Below are positions 18,481 through 26,565 of a stretch of 64,000 bases of DNA, piece by piece. The notes beneath the pieces are model-generated. The model was not told the origin of the DNA. It did not search any database and saw only the letters and a program-made list of their open reading frames with translations. The translations under genes were made by a program, and so were the position numbers. The stretch comes from Williamsia serinedens (lineage in GTDB: Bacteria > Actinomycetota > Actinomycetes > Mycobacteriales > Mycobacteriaceae): the NCBI RefSeq assembly GCF_024171725.1, contig NZ_JAMTCG010000003.1:62001-126000 (forward strand). Direction: 5' to 3'. How positions within the stretch are numbered: the stretch's first letter is position 1; each line of letters begins with the position of its first letter.

Positions 18481-19122
18481 CCCCGCCTCGGACGGGGTGG
18501 ACCCGGGGGTCGCCTGCCGCTTGTGCAGACGGCTGCGGACGACCAGCGCCACGATCGCCAGCACGACGACGCCGATGAGGATCTCCGAGGCGTACCCCAG
18601 GCTGCTCTCGACGGTCTTGTACGACGACCCCGCCACGTAGCCGAGGCTCGCGACAGCGCTCGCCCAGATGGCGCCACCGATCGCGTTGGCGATGACGAAG
18701 GTGCGCAACCGCATCCCCGACATCCCCGCCAGACCCGGCATGAGGGCCCGCAACGCCGCGATCCACCGGCCGACGAGGACGGCGATCGCACCGCGCTTGC
18801 GCAGTTCCTCGCGACCGCGGTCGACGTGCTCGGGCTTGACGAGCCGTTCGGGCAGCTTCGCGAGCAGGACCGTCCCCCAGCGTCGACCCACCTCGAAGCC
18901 GACGAAGTCACCGATGACCGCGCCGGCGATGGCCACGACGAGCACCTCCCAGAGCTCGAGTCGGCCGCCGCTGGCGATCACGCCCGCGATGAGCACGGCG
19001 ATCTCGCCCGGGATCACCACGCCGACGAAGATCGACGCCTCCAGCGCGGGGAACAGGAACGCCATCACCAGGGCCACCCACGGGGGCAGGCCGAGCAGCC
19101 ACTGGACCAGTGCATCGATCAC
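18433..19122 (-). CDS. DedA family membrane protein
   Basis: A 229-residue DedA/SNARE-associated protein. FPALEASIFVGVVIPGE is the conserved entrance with the acidic residue, and GDFVGFEVGRRWG plus GRWIAALRALMPGLAGMSGM carry the G-x-x-x-G/R-R features of the family; four to five hydrophobic segments. DedA proteins are flippases for undecaprenyl phosphate or phospholipid; the substrate is not readable here. I chose the GTG at 19122 (IDALVQWLLGLPPW), since upstream residues are basic and family members start here. The last 16 codons run into the convergent alcohol dehydrogenase gene. Confidence 0.85.
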   Translation of the reverse strand: MIDALVQWLLGLPPWVALVMAFLFPALEASIFVGVVIPGEIAVLIAGVIASGGRLELWEVLVVAIAGAVIGDFVGFEVGRRWGTVLLAKLPERLVKPEHVDRGREELRKRGAIAVLVGRWIAALRALMPGLAGMSGMRLRTFVIANAIGGAIWASAVASLGYVAGSSYKTVESSLGYASEILIGVVVLAIVALVVRSRLHKRQATPGSTPSEAGSVEEDHLADRRPVGE

Positions 19123-19167
19123 GCGTGAACGATAGTCGCGTGATCGACGCACTCGGCGTGGGCAACT

Positions 19168-19210
19168 GATTTCGTCGTCGTGTTACCGACAGGCAAACAA
19201 TTTCGTCATC
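19168..19210 (+). promoter_or_regulatory. Paired GATTTCGTCGTC motif upstream of the APC permease
   Basis: GATTTCGTCGTC (19168-19179) and AATTTCGTCATC (19199-19210) are direct repeats matching 10 of 12 bases, separated by 19 bases (31-bp repeat distance, three helical turns). The same pair with the same 19-base spacer lies before the aldehyde dehydrogenase gene (24627-24669). The repeats end 26 bp before a -10-like TATCTT (19237-19242), which is 7 bases before the ATG. Lrp/AsnC proteins bind phased sites of this spacing, and an Lrp-family gene is in the cluster. Confidence 0.6.
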
Positions 19211-19249
19211 GATCGGCGCAGAGACAGCAGAAAACGTATCTTCACTGCC

Positions 19250-20755
19250 ATGGCCGTATCGGTGCACACGCAGACCTCCCCGGGGGACAAGGGGCTGCAG
19301 GCCGGCGCGCTCGGGCTCGTCGGGAACGTGGTCATCGGGCTGTCCGCGGTGGCGCCGGCCTACAGCCTCGCCGCGACTCTCGGCTACGTGGTCGCGCAGG
19401 TCCACACCAAGGCACCTGCGATGTTCGTCATCGCGTTCATCCCTATGCTCCTCATCGCCTTCGCCTACCGCGAGCTCGGCCGGGACACCCCGGACTGCGG
19501 CACCACCTTCACCTGGGCGACCAAGGCCTTCGGCCCCTGGATCGGGTGGATGGGCGGCTGGGGGCTCGCCGTCTCGGCCATCATCGTGCTCGCCAACGTG
19601 GCCGAGATCGCCGCCGTCTACCTGTTCGAGTTCCTCCACCTCGACGGTCTCGCGGAGAACCTCTGGGTCAAGGTGGCCGTCGGCAGCCTGCTCATCGTCG
19701 CGATGACGTGGGTGTCGATCCGCGGGATCGTCATCAGCGAGCGGATGCAGAACGTCCTCATCGCCGTGCAGTTCGGCGTGCTGATCGTCGCGAGCGTGGT
19801 CGCCCTGGTGAAGGTCGCCACCGACACCGCGGGGCCGCAGGCGATCTCGCCCAGCTGGAGCTGGCTGTGGCCGAGCGGTGTCTCGTCGTCGGAACTGGCC
19901 GCCGCGGTGATCCTCTGCATCTTCATCTACTGGGGCTGGGACGCCTGCCTCGCGGTCGGCGAGGAGACCCGCGACGCCGAACGCACGCCCGGGCGGGCCG
20001 CGGTGCTGACCACCCTGATCCTGGTGTGCACCTACGTGCTGGTCGCCTACGCCGTGCAGTCGTTCGCCGGGTTCGGTGACACCGGTATCGGGTTGAACAA
20101 TCCGGACAACGCCGACGACGTGCTGACGATCCTCGGCGGGCCCGTCGGGGGGATCGTGATGTCGTCGGCGCTGCTGCTCACCGTGAGCATCTCCGCGCTC
20201 TCCTCGACCCAGTCGACGATCCTTCCGACCGCACGCGGCACCCTCTCGATGGCCGTATACGAGGCCCTTCCCCGCCGCTTCGCCCGCATCCACCCGCGCT
20301 ACATGACACCCGCGTTCGGGACGGCGGTGATGGGCGGTGCGGCGCTGATGTTCTACCTCGTCCTGTCGCTGGTCAGCCAGAACACCCTCGGCGACTCGGT
20401 GGCCTCGCTGGGCCTGGCGGTCGCCTTCTACTACGGCGTGACCGCCTATGCGTGCGTCTGGTACTTCCGCCGCACGCTCCTGCACTCCGCGCGGAACCTG
20501 TTCATGCGCGGCGTCTTCCCGCTGCTCGGCGGGATCGCGATGACGTGGGCGTTCATCCAGAGCGCCACCGACATGATCGCCCCCGACTACGGCTCGACCT
20601 CGGTCGGCGGGGTCGGCGGGGTGTTCATCATGGGCGTCGGCATGCTGGTGCTCGGGATCCCGCTGATGCTGCTGTGCGTCGCCGGGGGCCGCGACTTCTT
20701 CCGGGGGCGGACCCTGACCGCGACGACCGAGGTGAAGGTGCCCGATGTCCCCTGA
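19250..20755 (+). CDS. APC-superfamily amino acid/polyamine permease
   Basis: A 501-residue permease with about twelve hydrophobic segments. The first, GLVGNVVIGLSAVAPAYSLA, has the unwound Gly-rich segment typical of APC transporters, and CGTTFTWATKAFGPWIGWMGGW is the TM3 region of the amino-acid/polyamine-specific subgroup. Probable substrates are amines or amino acids; the shared promoter motif and the downstream amine oxidase, aldehyde dehydrogenase and aminotransferase genes suggest putrescine- or GABA-type compounds. The universal stress gene starts 11 bases before its stop. Start chosen from TATCTT-N7-ATG and normal length. Confidence 0.88.
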   Translation: MAVSVHTQTSPGDKGLQAGALGLVGNVVIGLSAVAPAYSLAATLGYVVAQVHTKAPAMFVIAFIPMLLIAFAYRELGRDTPDCGTTFTWATKAFGPWIGWMGGWGLAVSAIIVLANVAEIAAVYLFEFLHLDGLAENLWVKVAVGSLLIVAMTWVSIRGIVISERMQNVLIAVQFGVLIVASVVALVKVATDTAGPQAISPSWSWLWPSGVSSSELAAAVILCIFIYWGWDACLAVGEETRDAERTPGRAAVLTTLILVCTYVLVAYAVQSFAGFGDTGIGLNNPDNADDVLTILGGPVGGIVMSSALLLTVSISALSSTQSTILPTARGTLSMAVYEALPRRFARIHPRYMTPAFGTAVMGGAALMFYLVLSLVSQNTLGDSVASLGLAVAFYYGVTAYACVWYFRRTLLHSARNLFMRGVFPLLGGIAMTWAFIQSATDMIAPDYGSTSVGGVGGVFIMGVGMLVLGIPLMLLCVAGGRDFFRGRTLTATTEVKVPDVP

Positions 20756-21674
20756 CACCACCGGCGACCGTCCCCGCATCGTCGTCGGGTACCTGGCGAC
20801 CCCGTCGGGCGCCGACGGCGTCGAGCTGGGCGTCTCGCTCGCCCGGGCGGTCGGCGGCACCCTCGACCTCGTGTGCGTCGTCCGCGAGGAGGAACCCGAC
20901 GGCACCCCGGGTCGCGCGCCGTACCAGCGACTCCTCGTCGACCGCGCGCACCGGTGGCTCGCCGACGGCGAGCGGATCGTGGACGGGCGCGTGCCGGTGA
21001 CGACCCATGCGCCGGTCGCGGACTCCTTCACCGGCGGTCTCCTCGAGACGGCCACGACGCTCGACGCGGCGATGATCGTGGTCGGCGCGACCCGTGACGG
21101 GATCATCGGCCGTCACTCGTTGGGGTCGATCAGTTCCGAACTGCTGCACTGCGCCACGCTGCCCGTCGCGCTCGCACCGCGTGGTCACGCCGAGCGGGCG
21201 GACACCCGTCTCGACACGGTGACCGTCGCCGTGCCCGCCGCCCCGCGCGGCGACGACCCGCTGCCCGTCGCCGCCGACCTGGCCCGTCGAGCCGGTCTAG
21301 CGATGCGACTGGTCTGCCTGGTCTCCGCCGACGAGCACGGCGACATCGACGCCGTGGAGTCGGCGCAGACGCGACGCCGTCAGATCGCCGCGGCCCGGGC
21401 GGCTCTCGAGGACGCCCGTGACCGGCTCGGTGCGTCCGCCGACATCGACGCACTCGTCGGCGACGGTGACACGCTCGAGGACGCGGTGACGAGTCTGCGG
21501 TTCGGTGACGGCGACCTGCTGGTGGTGGGGTCGTCCCGTCTGGGTCCACCGAGCCGGGTCTTCCTCGGCTCCACGGCATCCCGGATCCTGCGCAGCACCA
21601 CCGCGCCGATCCTCGTGGTGCCCAAGTCCGACGGGGCGGGGTCCGATGAGGCGGGGTCCGACGGGGGCGCCTGA
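20745..21674 (+). CDS. Tandem universal stress protein (two UspA domains)
   Basis: A 309-residue cytosolic protein with two UspA-like domains. Domain 1 (about 8-150) begins RIVVGYLATPSGADGVELG and ends IIVVGATRDGIIGRHSLGSIS, resembling the ATP-binding G-2x-G-9x-G(S/T) motif. Domain 2 (about 160-300) ends LLVVGSSRLGPPSRVFLGSTA, again close to that motif. Both may therefore bind ATP. The gene overlaps the permease gene by 11 bases and is surely co-transcribed; UspA proteins are often paired with transporters, possibly as nucleotide-sensing regulators. It is convergent with the FAD oxidase gene. Confidence 0.88.
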   Translation: MSPDTTGDRPRIVVGYLATPSGADGVELGVSLARAVGGTLDLVCVVREEEPDGTPGRAPYQRLLVDRAHRWLADGERIVDGRVPVTTHAPVADSFTGGLLETATTLDAAMIVVGATRDGIIGRHSLGSISSELLHCATLPVALAPRGHAERADTRLDTVTVAVPAAPRGDDPLPVAADLARRAGLAMRLVCLVSADEHGDIDAVESAQTRRRQIAAARAALEDARDRLGASADIDALVGDGDTLEDAVTSLRFGDGDLLVVGSSRLGPPSRVFLGSTASRILRSTTAPILVVPKSDGAGSDEAGSDGGA

Positions 21675-21675
21675 C

Positions 21676-23124
21676 TCAGCTGTCGAAGCCGAGTCCGACC
21701 GCGTCCATCGCCCGCAGCCACACCCCGCGACGTCCGCGGTCCCGGTCCGCGCGGGCGAACGCCCGCCGCGTGAGCGTGATCCCGATCCAGCGCAGCGGCT
21801 CCGGCGGGAACGGCAACGGCCGGGTCCGGACCATCGACAGGCGCGTGCGCTCGGTGTCCCTGCCGTCGACGAGGTCCAGCGCCACCCGGGCACCGAAGTG
21901 CGAGGCCCCCACGCCGAGTCCGGTGAACCCGAGCACGGACACGACCCGCCCACCGAGGGCCCGGTCCCAGAACGCGCAGAACCGCGAACACGTGTCGATG
22001 GCCCCACCCCAGGCGTGGCTGATCCCGACGCCGTCGAGCGCCGGGAACATCTCCACGAGATGGTCGGCGAGCAGGGCGAACTCGTCGTCGGCGACGTGGT
22101 GGCGCGGGTCGTCGTCGGATCCGAAGTGGTACACCGCGTCCCACCCGCCGAACAGCACCCTGTCGTCGACGGTGCGCCGGATGTAGTGGAAGCGGTTGCC
22201 GACGTCGGCGAGTCCCTCCCGACCCGACCACCCGATCGCGGTGAGCTGCTCGGGGGTCAGCGGCTCGGTCATCAGGGCGTAGTCGAACACGGGGACCACC
22301 GAGAGGCGGTTCCGTCGCAGGAGCGGCCGCGCCGCGGCGGTGGCGAGCACGACACGGTCCGCGGTGACGACGCCGCCGTCGCAGACCGCGCGGACCCCGC
22401 GCCGCCGGTCGCGGCGGACCCGAGAGACGGGTGTGTGTTCGTGCACGGTCACGCCCAGGCGTTCCGCCGCGTCCGCGAGCCCCCACGCGAGCTTCGCGGG
22501 GTCGACGAGGGCGACCGTCGGATCGTGGGACGAGGCCACCACCATCGGCGACCGGATGTCCGCGGCGGTGTCGCCGGCACGGCGGACCGTCACGTCGATC
22601 CCGAGTTCGCGCGCGGTCCGCGCCTGGTCCTCGAGATCGGCGACCTGCCAGTCGAAGGTCGCGACGTCGAGTTCTCCGACCCGCTCGAACGCGGCGTCGA
22701 TCGCCAGCCGGTCCAGCGCCGCCTCGATGGCGTCGAGCGTCTCGACGCCCAACCGCACCAGCGTCGGCATCTCGTCGGCGAAGCGCGCCACGCCGTTCGC
22801 GAGGCCGTGGGTGATGCTCGCCGCGCAGAACCCGCCGTTGCGGCCGCTCGCACCGTCGGCGATCTGGCCGCCCTCGAGCAGGACCACACGCCGCGACGGA
22901 TCCTCCTCCGCCGCCTGCACGGCCGTCCACAACCCGGTGAACCCGCCCCCGACGACGAGGAGGTCACAGTCGAGGTCGCCGGCGAGGGACGGTCGCGCCG
23001 ACGGTCTCTCCGGGCGGTCGAGCCAGTACGGCTCGCGGCGGGCACCGGCGACCATCGCCTGCCCACGCTCGGTCGGCCGCTCGATCCACACGGGGGCGTC
23101 GACGGCCGGACTCCGGACGGTCAT
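21676..23124 (-). CDS. FAD-dependent amine oxidase (DAO / gamma-glutamylputrescine oxidase-like)
   Basis: A 482-residue flavoprotein of the D-amino-acid-oxidase fold. The N-terminal dinucleotide motif is LLVVGGGFTGLWTA (about residues 50-65); EGGQIADGASGRNGG is typical of PuuB/glycine-oxidase-type enzymes. FGGWDAVYHF and the C-terminal FTGLGVGASHFGA fit the same group. It probably oxidises an amine such as (gamma-glutamyl)putrescine to the aldehyde. Its ATG overlaps the stop of the aldehyde dehydrogenase gene by four bases (ATGA), so the aldehyde would be passed on for oxidation. No gamma-glutamylputrescine synthetase gene is in the window, so free putrescine or another amine is equally possible. 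Confidence 0.83.
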   Translation of the reverse strand: MTVRSPAVDAPVWIERPTERGQAMVAGARREPYWLDRPERPSARPSLAGDLDCDLLVVGGGFTGLWTAVQAAEEDPSRRVVLLEGGQIADGASGRNGGFCAASITHGLANGVARFADEMPTLVRLGVETLDAIEAALDRLAIDAAFERVGELDVATFDWQVADLEDQARTARELGIDVTVRRAGDTAADIRSPMVVASSHDPTVALVDPAKLAWGLADAAERLGVTVHEHTPVSRVRRDRRRGVRAVCDGGVVTADRVVLATAAARPLLRRNRLSVVPVFDYALMTEPLTPEQLTAIGWSGREGLADVGNRFHYIRRTVDDRVLFGGWDAVYHFGSDDDPRHHVADDEFALLADHLVEMFPALDGVGISHAWGGAIDTCSRFCAFWDRALGGRVVSVLGFTGLGVGASHFGARVALDLVDGRDTERTRLSMVRTRPLPFPPEPLRWIGITLTRRAFARADRDRGRRGVWLRAMDAVGLGFDS

Positions 23125-24608
23125 CGCCCGGGCAGCGTGAACACCGAGCGGTGCCATTCCTTCGCGGCCACCCCGGTGATGTCGCTCATCACGTGCTTGA
23201 TCGACAGGTACTCCTCGAGCGAGTACGCCGACATGTCCTTGCCGAAGCCCGATGCGCCGAACCCGCCGTGGGGCATCTCGCTGATGATCGGGATGTGGTC
23301 GTTGATCCACACGCAGCCGGCGTGGATCTCACGAGACGCCCGTTGGGCGAGATAGACGTCCCGGGTCCACGCCGACGCCGCGAGCCCGTAGTCGGTGTCG
23401 TTGGCGCGGCGCAGGGCGTCGTCGACATCGGTGAAGGTCGACACCGTGAGCACCGGTCCGAACACCTCGTCGCGGTAGATCTCGCTGTGCTCGTCGACGC
23501 CGTCGATCAGGGTCGGCGGGTAGAACGCGCCGGGGCCGTCGGGAACCGTTCCGCCGGTGACGATCCGGGCGCCGGCCGCGGCAGCACGGTCGACCATCCC
23601 GGCGATCTTGTCCCGGTGCCGGTGCGACACCACCGGACCCATGTCGGTGGCGGGGTCGGTCGGGTCCCCGACCCGGACGGCCGCCATGAGTTCGGCGACG
23701 CCGGCGACGAAGTCGTCGTGCAGCTCGGGCGCCACGATCGCCCGCGTCGCAGCCGTGCAGTCCTGGCCGGAGTTGATCAGGGCCCCAGCGACGGCACCGT
23801 GCACCGCGGCGTCGAGATCGGCGTCGGCGAAGACGACGAAGGGCGCCTTGCCGCCGAGTTCGAGCTGTACGCGTGTGCCCCGGGCCGCGGCATTCGCCAT
23901 GACCTGGCGGCCGACGGCGGTCGACCCGGTGAACGTGACGACATCCGCGCCCGGGTGCCCCGAGATCGCCGCGCCCACCTCCGGTCCGGTCCCGGTCAGC
24001 ACGGAGAACACGCCGTCCGGGATGCCCGCCTCGGTCGCCAGCCGGGCCAGGGTGAGCGTGGTCAGCGGTGTGATCTCGGCCGGTTTCAGCACGACCGCAC
24101 ACCCGGCCGCCAGCGCGGGCATCACCTTCCAGATCGCCATGCCCAGCGGGTAGTTCCACGGTGTCACGGTGCCGACCACCCCGGCCGCCTCCCGACGGAT
24201 CGACGACGTGTGGTCGGCCGAGTACTCCGCGGTCGCCTTGCCCTCGAGCAGCCGCGCCGCGCCCGCGAAGAACGCCGTCGTGTCCACCGCACCGGGTACG
24301 TCGAAATCGGTCGCCAGGCGCGTCGTCTTGCCGGTCTGCGCGACCTCGTCGGCGACGAGTTCGGAGGTGGCTCCCTCGATGCGACGGGCGAGTTCGGCGA
24401 GCACCCCCGCCCGCTCCGCGGGCGTGACACCGCCCCACCCCGGTTGCGCGGCGCGCGCCTGCGCCATCGCCTCGTCCACGTCGGCGGCGGTGGCAAGGCG
24501 CATGGTCGCCACGACCTCGTCGGTCGCGGGGTTCACCACCTGGTGTTCGGGCCCGTCGGTGCTGCGGGAGGCCCCGGACATCCAACTGGAGGCAACGGTG
24601 TTCGGCAT
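23121..24608 (-). CDS. Aldehyde dehydrogenase, gamma-aminobutyraldehyde type
   Basis: A 495-residue NAD(P)-dependent aldehyde dehydrogenase. TPWNYPLGM, the coenzyme-fold FTGSTAVGRQVM, the catalytic glutamate region LELGGKAPFVVF, and the catalytic cysteine in NSGQDCTAATR (about residue 290) are all present; EVFGPVL closes the site. Sequence style and context fit gamma-aminobutyraldehyde or aminoaldehyde dehydrogenases, which make GABA from putrescine-derived aldehyde. First gene of a two-gene unit with the FAD oxidase. TACACT six bases before the ATG indicates a leaderless promoter whose -35 region is covered by the GATTTCGTCGTC motif. Divergent from the Lrp regulator. Confidence 0.9.
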   Translation of the reverse strand: MPNTVASSWMSGASRSTDGPEHQVVNPATDEVVATMRLATAADVDEAMAQARAAQPGWGGVTPAERAGVLAELARRIEGATSELVADEVAQTGKTTRLATDFDVPGAVDTTAFFAGAARLLEGKATAEYSADHTSSIRREAAGVVGTVTPWNYPLGMAIWKVMPALAAGCAVVLKPAEITPLTTLTLARLATEAGIPDGVFSVLTGTGPEVGAAISGHPGADVVTFTGSTAVGRQVMANAAARGTRVQLELGGKAPFVVFADADLDAAVHGAVAGALINSGQDCTAATRAIVAPELHDDFVAGVAELMAAVRVGDPTDPATDMGPVVSHRHRDKIAGMVDRAAAAGARIVTGGTVPDGPGAFYPPTLIDGVDEHSEIYRDEVFGPVLTVSTFTDVDDALRRANDTDYGLAASAWTRDVYLAQRASREIHAGCVWINDHIPIISEMPHGGFGASGFGKDMSAYSLEEYLSIKHVMSDITGVAAKEWHRSVFTLPGR

Positions 24609-24614
24609 GGGCCG

Positions 24615-24620
24615 AGTGTA
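24615..24620 (-). promoter_or_regulatory. -10 element of the aldehyde dehydrogenase promoter
   Basis: TACACT on the minus strand, six bases from the ATG at 24608. The proximal GATTTCGTCGTC motif ends six bases upstream of it and thus occupies the -35 region. Confidence 0.5.
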
Positions 24621-24626
24621 GGTGAT

Positions 24627-24669
24627 GACGACGAAATCCTCTCGATATCGACCGCTCGACGACGGAATC
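24627..24669 (-). promoter_or_regulatory. Paired GATTTCGTCGTC motif in the aldehyde dehydrogenase/Lrp intergenic region
   Basis: On the minus strand GATTCCGTCGTC (24669-24658) and GATTTCGTCGTC (24638-24627) are direct repeats with a 19-base spacer, oriented toward the aldehyde dehydrogenase gene. The second is identical over all 12 bases to the motif before the APC permease. A partial third copy on the plus strand (GATTCCGT, 24696-24703) faces the Lrp gene. Probable binding sites of the adjacent Lrp-family regulator, which would control both its own region and the permease. Confidence 0.6.
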
Positions 24670-24715
24670 GGCATCTCGGCTTGCTTCCGTTCGCTGATTC
24701 CGTGACACTCGACGG

Positions 24716-25168
24716 GTGACCAAAGACCTCGACGAGGTGTCCAAGCGCATCATCGAGGAGCTGCAGGCCGACGGGCGCCGGTCCTACGCGTCGGTCGGCA
24801 AGTCGGTGGGTCTGTCCGAGGCCGCGGTGCGGAACCGGGTGCAGAAGCTCAGCGACAGCGGGCTCCTGCAGATCGTCGCGGTCACCGATCCGTTGCGCGT
24901 CGGGTTCGCCCGACAGGCCATGATCGGGATCCGCTGCACCGGCGACTCGGTGGCCGTCGCGAACGCACTGGCCGAGATCGACGAGATCGACTACGTGGTG
25001 CTCACCGCGGGCTCGTTCGACGTCGTCGTCGAGGTGGTGTGCGAGGACGACTCCCGCCTGCTCGAACTGCTCAACCAGAAGATCCGCGCCCAGCCGGGCG
25101 TGACCACGACCGAGACGCTCGTCTACCTGAAACTCGTCAAACAGCAATACAACTGGGGTACACGATGA
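24716..25168 (+). CDS. Lrp/AsnC family transcriptional regulator
   Basis: A 150-residue regulator. The N-terminal AsnC-type HTH reads RIIEELQADGRRSYASVGKS, then GLSEAAVRNRVQKL as recognition helix (about residues 10-55). The RAM effector domain follows (about 70-145), including TAGSFDVVVEVVCED, the effector pocket and oligomer interface. Such proteins sense amino acids or related amines. It starts with GTG at 24716, with GACACT six bases upstream. Its stop overlaps the aminotransferase start (ATGA), so regulator and enzyme are made together. It is divergent from the aldehyde dehydrogenase-oxidase pair, the classic position of a local regulator. Confidence 0.9.
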   Translation: MTKDLDEVSKRIIEELQADGRRSYASVGKSVGLSEAAVRNRVQKLSDSGLLQIVAVTDPLRVGFARQAMIGIRCTGDSVAVANALAEIDEIDYVVLTAGSFDVVVEVVCEDDSRLLELLNQKIRAQPGVTTTETLVYLKLVKQQYNWGTR

Positions 25169-26565
25169 CCACGACACCGATCGAGCCGGCGCACGGCTCC
25201 ATCACCGATCCCACCTCCGACGTCGGATCCCGCAGCGCGCGACATCTGTGGGGTCACTTCGCCCGTCACGGGGCGGAGATCGTCCCGCCCGTGATCACCC
25301 GCGGCGAGGGCGTCCGGATCTTCGACGACCGCGGTCGGAGCTACCTCGACGGGCTGTCGGGGCTGTTCGTCGTGCAGCTCGGGCACGGACGCGAGGAACT
25401 CGCCCGTGCCGCCGCCGCACAGGCCTCGACCCTCGCCTACTTCCCGCTCTGGTCCTACACCACGCCGCCGGCGGTCGAGCTCGCCGAGCGCCTCGCGGCG
25501 TACGCCCCGGGCGACCTCAACCGCGTCTTCTTCACCACCGGCGGCGGTGAGGCCGTCGAGAGCGCCTGGAAGCTCGCGAAGAAGTACTTCAAGCTCACCG
25601 GCAAACCGTTGAAGCACAAGGTGATCTCGCGCTCGGTGGCCTACCACGGCACACCGCAGGGGGCACTCGCGATCACCGGCATCCCGGCCATGAAGCAGGA
25701 TTTCGAACCGCTGACCCCGGGTGCGTTCCGTGCGCCGAACACGAACTTCTACCGCGCACCCGAGCACGGCGACGACGAGAAGGCGTTCGGCCGCTGGGCC
25801 GCCGACCGCATCGCCGAGGCCATCGAGTTCGAGGGCCCCGACACGGTGGCCGCGGTGTTCCTCGAGCCCGTCCAGAACGCCGGGGGCTGCTTCCCGCCCC
25901 CGCCCGGCTACTTCGAGCGGGTCCGCGAGATCTGCGACGAGTACGACGTGCTGCTCGTCTCCGACGAGGTGATCTGCGCGTTCGGACGCATCGGGTCGAT
26001 GTTCGCCTGCGACGACTTCGGCTACGTCCCCGACATCATCACCTGCGCCAAGGGTATGACCTCGGGCTACTCCCCCATCGGTGCCATGATCGCGAGCGAT
26101 CGTCTGTTCGAGCCGTTCTCCGACGGCATGACGTCGTTCGCGCACGGCTACACGTTCGGTGGTCACCCGGTGTCGGCGGCCGTCGCGCTGGCCAACCTCG
26201 ACATCTTCGACGCCGAGGGGATCACCGACCACGTGAAGGAGACCGCGCCGGCGTTCCGCGCGACGCTCGAGCGGCTGCACGACCTGCCGATCGTCGGTGA
26301 CGTCCGGGGTGAGGGGTTCTTCTACGGGATCGAGCTCGTGAAGGACAAGGCGACGAAGGAGACGTTCACCGACGAGGAGTCGGAGCGGGTGCTGCGCGGG
26401 TTCCTCTCGCACGCCCTGTTCGACGCGGGTCTGTACTGCCGCGCCGACGACCGGGGCGACCCGGTGGTCCAGCTGGCCCCGCCGCTCATCAGCGGTCAGG
26501 CCGAGTTCGACGAGATCGAGTCGATCCTGCGGTCGGTGCTCACCGAGGCGTACACGAAGATCTGA
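25165..26565 (+). CDS. Class-III aminotransferase (putrescine/GABA/beta-alanine type)
   Basis: A 466-residue PLP-dependent omega-aminotransferase. FFTTGGGEAVESAWKLAKKY binds the cofactor phosphate; VAAVFLEPVQNAGGC and VLLVSDEVICAFGR hold the ring-binding Asp; the PLP lysine is Lys296 in ITCAKGMTSGYSPIGA. The closest relatives I recall are putrescine- or beta-alanine-pyruvate transaminases and Rv3329 of M. tuberculosis. With the aldehyde dehydrogenase it would convert a diamine to an amino acid in two steps. Coupled to the Lrp gene by an ATGA overlap; a gap of 46 bases follows before the chosen start of the hydrolase gene. Confidence 0.9.
   Translation: MTTTPIEPAHGSITDPTSDVGSRSARHLWGHFARHGAEIVPPVITRGEGVRIFDDRGRSYLDGLSGLFVVQLGHGREELARAAAAQASTLAYFPLWSYTTPPAVELAERLAAYAPGDLNRVFFTTGGGEAVESAWKLAKKYFKLTGKPLKHKVISRSVAYHGTPQGALAITGIPAMKQDFEPLTPGAFRAPNTNFYRAPEHGDDEKAFGRWAADRIAEAIEFEGPDTVAAVFLEPVQNAGGCFPPPPGYFERVREICDEYDVLLVSDEVICAFGRIGSMFACDDFGYVPDIITCAKGMTSGYSPIGAMIASDRLFEPFSDGMTSFAHGYTFGGHPVSAAVALANLDIFDAEGITDHVKETAPAFRATLERLHDLPIVGDVRGEGFFYGIELVKDKATKETFTDEESERVLRGFLSHALFDAGLYCRADDRGDPVVQLAPPLISGQAEFDEIESILRSVLTEAYTKI

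Follow-up and report, generated by a model that had tools for sequence, protein, structure and literature searches.

In the genome of Williamsia serinedens an aldehyde dehydrogenase (ALDH) gene and a gene for an Lrp/AsnC regulator (lrp) diverge from an intergenic region that carries a repeated motif, and the question raised by this locus is whether the repeats serve as an operator for the regulator encoded beside them. The whole stretch of DNA analysed, 64,000 nucleotides long, is referred to here as the window. A sequence-only reading of it had proposed an Lrp-type operator made of two copies of a 12-bp motif, separated by a 19-base spacer on the minus strand before the ALDH gene, and this pair was confirmed at 24627-24669. 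The distal copy is GATTCCGTCGTC (minus strand, 24669-24658) and the proximal copy, 19 bases from it, is GATTTCGTCGTC (minus strand, 24638-24627); the hexamer TACACT (24620-24615, minus strand) does start six bases past the proximal 12-mer, as had been claimed.

The pair lies within a cluster of six genes that spans 19250 to 26565, from permease to aminotransferase:

19250 to 20755, plus strand: permease, amino acid/polyamine-type (AA_permease_2, PF13520)
20745 to 21674, plus strand: universal stress protein (Usp, PF00582), overlapping the permease end
21676 to 23310, minus strand: FAD-dependent oxidoreductase (DAO, PF01266, over residues 116-478)
23121 to 24608, minus strand: ALDH, aminobutyraldehyde dehydrogenase subfamily NF010000
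24716 to 25168, plus strand: Lrp/AsnC regulator (lrp), 150 aa, GTG start (PF13404 and PF01037)
25165 to 26565, plus strand: class III aminotransferase (NF005102), gapless after lrp

The amine-catabolic character that had been proposed for this cluster is supported. The ALDH scored 679.4 bits against NF010000 (cut-off 615) when read as the longer ORF. Its start is most likely ATG 24608, because the 517-aa ORF reads MPNTV from that codon and alignments with the closer orthologues start at residues 1-6. The true start of the FAD oxidoreductase ORF (21676-23310) is probably further in; 115 residues precede the DAO match and 93 precede the TIGR03329 match. The protein encoded next door was correctly recognized as Lrp-type, with an AsnC-type HTH (PF13404, 1.3e-14) and an Lrp/AsnC ligand-binding domain (PF01037, 1.2e-14) that together place it among the Lrp/AsnC transcription regulators; its PDB relatives are PH1519, LrpA, Lrp and AsnC, and it scored under the cut-offs of every NCBIfam equivalog listed. 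The closest solved chains to the aminotransferase (25165-26565) are 9gh9, 9qgh and 9qc2. Of 296 genomes sampled from the class, 181 have a relative of the window lrp (E 1e-40 or better). In 78 of the 80 named loci the gene after lrp is a related aminotransferase, the exceptions being L070, without one there, and L108, where it is upstream; an ALDH of 69-75% identity is divergent from lrp in most mycobacteria and their kin.

Single 12-mers are only mildly enriched in the 64-kb window, where five matches with at most one mismatch compare with 1.69 expected, and five or more were seen in 3 of 100 shuffles. Exact GATTYCGTCGTC occurs nine times in the 4.64-Mb genome, three of them within the amine cluster; the third cluster copy is at 19168 (plus strand), ahead of the permease gene, and has its partner, AATTTCGTCATC, at 19199-19210, exactly 19 bases on. 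The paired form RATTYCGTCRTC-N19-RATTYCGTCRTC is found twice in the 4.64-Mb genome, at 24627-24669 and at 19168-19210 before the permease, with no occurrence of the reversed control, so that the pair is beyond chance. A search of related genomes for the pair, which the sequence-only reading had advised, returned the strict letters in 0 of 60 other relatives. A conserved asymmetric 12-bp motif was therefore rejected and a degenerate palindrome taken in its place. The strict pair letters are unconserved, but the degenerate palindrome is conserved with the same spacing, 31/32 bp.

The unit of the array is thus not the 12-bp motif first described but a 15-bp palindrome, about CNACGGAWTCCGTNG. The palindromic matrix was built from 23 lrp upstreams of the family, in a search seeded with the core ACGGA-W-TCCGT; four of 27 loci (L029, L034, L036 and L037) were omitted from its training, and a leave-out matrix, additionally without L011 and L012 (the window genome and its nearest relative), was left with 21 upstreams and gave the consensus CnACGGAnTCCGTnG, palindromy being imposed in the model. 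On the 23 family lrp upstreams the first matrix found 22 site pairs at 31 bp and nine at 32 bp. Unseeded random starts, run without the window genome and its nearest relative, recovered the half site GATTCCGTnG. In the 12 best of these runs 31 bp ranked first among the distances once and second 11 times; the distances of 12, 14 or 17 bp seen beside it are attributed to a match of the palindrome with itself on the opposite strand. The leave-out consensus, together with the half site recovered by the free model, places the repeats with Lrp/AsnC operators that have short (13-15 bp) palindromic sites. The sites in the window are as follows, none with an assigned strand:

24629 to 24643: site A, centre 24636, 9.1 bits, the weakest of three; 15 window positions score higher
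24660 to 24674: site B, centre 24667, ranked third among single sites of the window (fourth by the leave-out matrix)
24691 to 24705: site C, centre 24698, ranked second among single sites of the window (third by the leave-out matrix)
19163 to 19177: permease site 1, centre 19170, ranked first among single sites of the window by both matrices
19194 to 19208: permease site 2, centre 19201, ranked fourth among single sites of the window (second by the leave-out matrix)

Between ALDH and lrp there are consequently three palindromes rather than a pair, with centres 31 bp apart at 24636, 24667 and 24698; site C had been missed, and the middle and third sites make up the best conserved pair of the array, the equivalent of site A being poorly conserved. 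Site A overlaps the proximal 12-mer and, as had been suggested for that repeat, the ALDH -35 position; site B overlaps the distal 12-mer. Relative to the ALDH start codon, B is at -59 and C at -90. The second array, before the permease (centres 19170 and 19201), has the same N19 spacer as at ALDH and is the strongest pair in the window. The four best single sites in the 64 kb are 19170, 24698, 24667 and 19201, the same four with the leave-out matrix, and the top four 31-bp pairs start at 19170, 24667, 24636 and 19201, the next pair scoring 9.4 bits. With the leave-out matrix a 56-bp pair at 19114 outscores the 24636/24667 pair. A third permease site at 19232 was considered and dropped (4.7 bits, 98 window positions higher). 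A lone palindrome of 12.6 bits was also observed at 24306, within the ALDH coding region and 330 bp from site A.

Conservation of the phase was assessed over 46 spacings in lrp upstreams of 350 bp, a strict pair being defined by both sites reaching at least 7 bits and their sum at least 22. The best spacing was 31/32 bp at 62 of 80 named lrp loci, 22 bp at five and 20 bp at three, which places the array among Lrp/AsnC operators with multiple sites two or three helical turns apart. Strict pairs stood upstream of lrp in 54 of the 80; the 26 without one are by title mostly Micrococcales, with four Mycobacteriaceae. Random 360-bp stretches of the same loci served as a control and gave a strict pair in 6 of 1797, with 31/32 bp best in 81, about as expected. 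Among the 30 class loci listed for their score, three of them from the window's family, 28 had 31/32 bp as best spacing and 27 a strict pair. Of 20 lrp loci selected from the class's other families, 19 had the same best spacing, among them every one of the 12 loci of family f33. Strict 31/32-bp pairs numbered 59 in 28.8 kb of lrp upstream and 19 in 6.75 kb of permease upstream, compared with four in 1.42 Mb of remaining sequence of these loci; when each of the 80 lrp upstreams was reshuffled 100 times under a first-order Markov model, none appeared, and a single reshuffle of whole loci produced one. The letters of the spacer vary while the 31/32-bp spacing is kept. Pairs at 31/32 bp outside lrp and permease upstreams were seen in L081 (about 5041, 5073 and 5104), L053 (about 7016) and L108 (about 4272).

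When 37 non-redundant loci of mycobacteria and kin were anchored on their best site, a second site stood at -31 in 78%, at +31 in 16%, at -22 in 19% and at -63 in 11%; the corresponding values for 39 other loci were 26% at -31 and 23% at +31. On these percentages the 22-bp step, close to two turns, is a minority variant. Three loci (L062, L080 and L025) have lrp-upstream sites 22 bp apart instead of 31 bp.

A like pair stands before permease orthologues and paralogues, and the permease upstreams, which lay outside matrix training (some were within the training of profile R1, below), had 31/32 bp as best spacing in 22 of 28, the window's own counted. With the leave-out matrix the best spacing before three permeases was 20 bp. 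Among the 30 permease loci listed, out of a longer set of matches, the leave-out matrix found the strict permease pair in 13 of 19 family genomes with lrp versus 0 of 11 without (P 0.0003). Under a rule of best spacing 31/32 bp and a sum of at least 18 this matrix gave 12 of 19 versus 0 of 11, and the first matrix gave 15 of 19 versus 0 of 11 at permease loci, two of the 11 (L136 and L142, on truncated contigs) being misplaced. The 11 lrp-negative permeases comprise five that are 68-70% identical to the window's and six distant ones at 44-50%. In L054, L063, L064 and L079 the 31/32-bp pair is upstream of a paralogous permease (46-48% identical), with a closer orthologue behind it that lacks a strong pair; the paired permeases of these loci may belong to a single operon headed by the operator.

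A profile of 48 positions, R1, was built from 34 of 45 pairs and run against whole genomes. In the window's genome the permease array at 19163-19207 was the sole significant match (E 0.0065), and the 24627-24669 pair was absent among the matches listed (150 of 566 candidates scored in both cases); within the window that pair scored 7.8 bits (E 0.36), and R1 is a weaker detector than the matrix for the window's ALDH-lrp array. Across 101 family genomes, 26 have lrp (E 1e-30 or better), at least 24 have an R1 hit (E 0.05, with 60 candidates per genome scored) and at least 20 have both (Fisher P 3e-12). Genomes with lrp account for 23 R1 hits, and by their coordinates 22 of these are immediately upstream of lrp or permease, the other being about 9 kb from lrp. 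Genomes G107, G032, G082 and G109 have R1 hits with no lrp at the cut used, which may reflect chance or a different Lrp paralogue. Because the genomes are related and not independent, the P values make the association look stronger than it is. Counts on some genomes are partly non-independent in a further sense, since the training loci of R1 and of the matrix came in part from species that were met again in later searches.

The conserved spacing, the recurrence at permeases and the co-occurrence with lrp fit an operator of the neighbouring Lrp, and on this sequence evidence we consider it very probable that the repeats serve the Lrp/AsnC protein encoded at 24716 as its operator. The original proposal of an Lrp-type operator is accordingly supported as regards helical phasing and the link to the neighbouring Lrp in an amine-catabolic cluster, but not as regards the motif unit or the number of sites; equally, the array does lie before ALDH, but its other end looks onto the lrp promoter, and the permease is preceded by a similar pair.

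It is improbable that a different polyamine regulator, for example one of GntR, TetR or GlnR type, binds the sites and that lrp is adjacent only incidentally. The four R1 hits in genomes lacking lrp would suit such a regulator, as would the Streptomyces coelicolor system described in PMC8998196, in which EpuRI shifts the sco5657 ALDH promoter and EpuRI and EpuRII both shift regulator promoters. Set against this, the permease pair tracks lrp (13 of 19 versus 0 of 11), nearly all R1 hits of lrp-bearing genomes (22 of 23) fall just upstream of lrp or permease, and palindromes two or three turns apart are a pattern on record for the Lrp family in PMC2995911 and PMC8707732.

How the sites lie relative to promoters bears on what such an operator might do. 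Two promoter elements were assigned by eye:

24681 to 24709, plus strand: predicted lrp promoter, TTGCTT (24681-24686), N17, GACACT (24704-24709)
24615 to 24620, minus strand: predicted ALDH -10 box TACACT, six bases before ATG 24608

Six bases separate GACACT from the GTG start, so the predicted lrp promoter would be leaderless. Site C falls in the spacer between its -35 and -10, a placement common to most of 30 non-redundant mycobacterial and kin loci, in which the majority letters, counted from the strongest site, spell TTGC over positions -17 to -14 and CACAAT over +7 to +12 (7 of the 30 rows of this column profile are anchored elsewhere). A scan with a strict sigma-70 consensus found no promoter in either the ALDH-lrp or the permease region; by eye, no clear -35 is seen at ALDH or permease, where the sites extend as far as the region from -49 to -59. 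In six sequences of family f33 (L206-L211) the array is upstream of a TTGCGG-like, -35-like element of lrp. The position of site C between -35 and -10 suggests lrp autorepression, and the f33 arrangement, with the array upstream of the -35-like element, indicates that autorepression by occlusion is not general.

Because most of the 30 loci have a site overlapping the spacer of the lrp promoter and come from related genomes, the motif could in principle be a by-product of shared lrp promoter ancestry with no operator function. We think this very unlikely, given the like pair before permeases, the other position in f33 and a spacing that is kept despite varied spacer letters. That these are chance repeats in a GC-rich genome is scarcely credible: single 12-mers are indeed only about threefold above expectation in the window, but the cross-species spacing statistics contradict it, reshuffled lrp upstreams yielded no strict pairs at 31/32 bp, and the two places in 4.64 Mb that carry the strict letter pair belong to one gene cluster.

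If the array is the operator of the neighbouring Lrp, one Lrp dimer would be expected to bind each 15-bp palindrome (about CNACGGAWTCCGTNG), and the 31-bp step, three helical turns, would align the dimers along one face of the helix, allowing a higher oligomer to bind the sites together and bend or wrap the DNA. Occupancy of site C would then repress lrp and the downstream aminotransferase. Site A lies over the ALDH -35, and B and C could repress or activate ALDH; the effect on ALDH and permease could be of either sign. An amine-derived ligand, probably an intermediate of amine breakdown, might reset occupancy, and the array is most likely a real switch for amine breakdown. More tentatively, and with considerable doubt, one may imagine a class-wide actinobacterial Lrp whose signal is an amine or aminoaldehyde and not one of the proteinogenic amino acids, in which a rigid 31-bp wrap represses lrp while setting the divergent ALDH and the distant permease, the array being kept while its position shifts between lineages.

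These results offer a candidate site of binding for a regulator with many relatives in the class, together with a small regulon predicted to comprise lrp-aminotransferase, ALDH and permease. They could also turn reported EpuRII gel shifts into defined sites, and a near-constant 31-bp phase over so wide a range lends itself to testing the three-turn wrapping model on bacterial Lrp proteins. The architecture of the array is already known for the Lrp family: sites two or three helical turns apart are described in PMC2995911, and periods of 7-8, 18 or 30-31 bp are given as usual for many Lrp homologues in PMC8707732, which bears out the earlier remark that sites three turns apart are usual for Lrp/AsnC proteins. 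The companion remark that no such operator was known needs qualifying, as 30-31 bp phased Lrp sites are in print; the specific site and its conservation may be new, in that searches of the open-licence literature by letters and by topic found no description of a CNACGGAWTCCGTNG operator or its conservation.

One close likeness, by neighbourhood, is EpuRII (SCO5656) of S. coelicolor, an Lrp/AsnC protein encoded, like that of the window, between an aminotransferase (SCO5655) and a gamma-aminobutyraldehyde dehydrogenase (SCO5657) according to PMC9397018. The window lrp likewise stands between aminotransferase and aminobutyraldehyde dehydrogenase genes, which puts it in the EpuRII group by neighbours, and gene order suggests that the two are orthologues. 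EpuRII shifts its own promoter in EMSA (PMC8998196); a word search of the main text of that paper found no site defined for it, and the targets reported for EpuRII are wider, namely glnA3, sco5676, sco5977 and sco6960. Other local Lrp/AsnC regulators divergent from their target, as in the window, are PA2577, BkdR, MdeR and PutR (PMC8707732); they differ in their targets, and one pseudopalindrome is named there for PA2577. Ss-LrpB of Sulfolobus solfataricus, as described in PMC2995911, offers a parallel to the arrangement predicted here, in that three of its dimers interact and wrap about 100 bp, with dual autoregulation, but it acts at an archaeal basal promoter, and that description, so far as seen, includes no amine cluster. 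The best model for the ALDH-lrp array, by analogy, is BarR. Ah-BarR of Acidianus hospitalis is, as here, an Lrp-type regulator divergent from an amino acid catabolic gene, with three regularly spaced 15-bp semi-palindromes in the intergenic region; in an E. coli reporter system it represses its own gene and activates the divergent aminotransferase, and its ligand is beta-alanine (PMC10201364). It differs in being archaeal, in the AT-rich centres of its sites and in having 17 and 27-29 bp between them (PMC10201364), whereas here a centre-to-centre step of 31/32 bp prevails, the divergent gene is ALDH, and the aminotransferase follows lrp.
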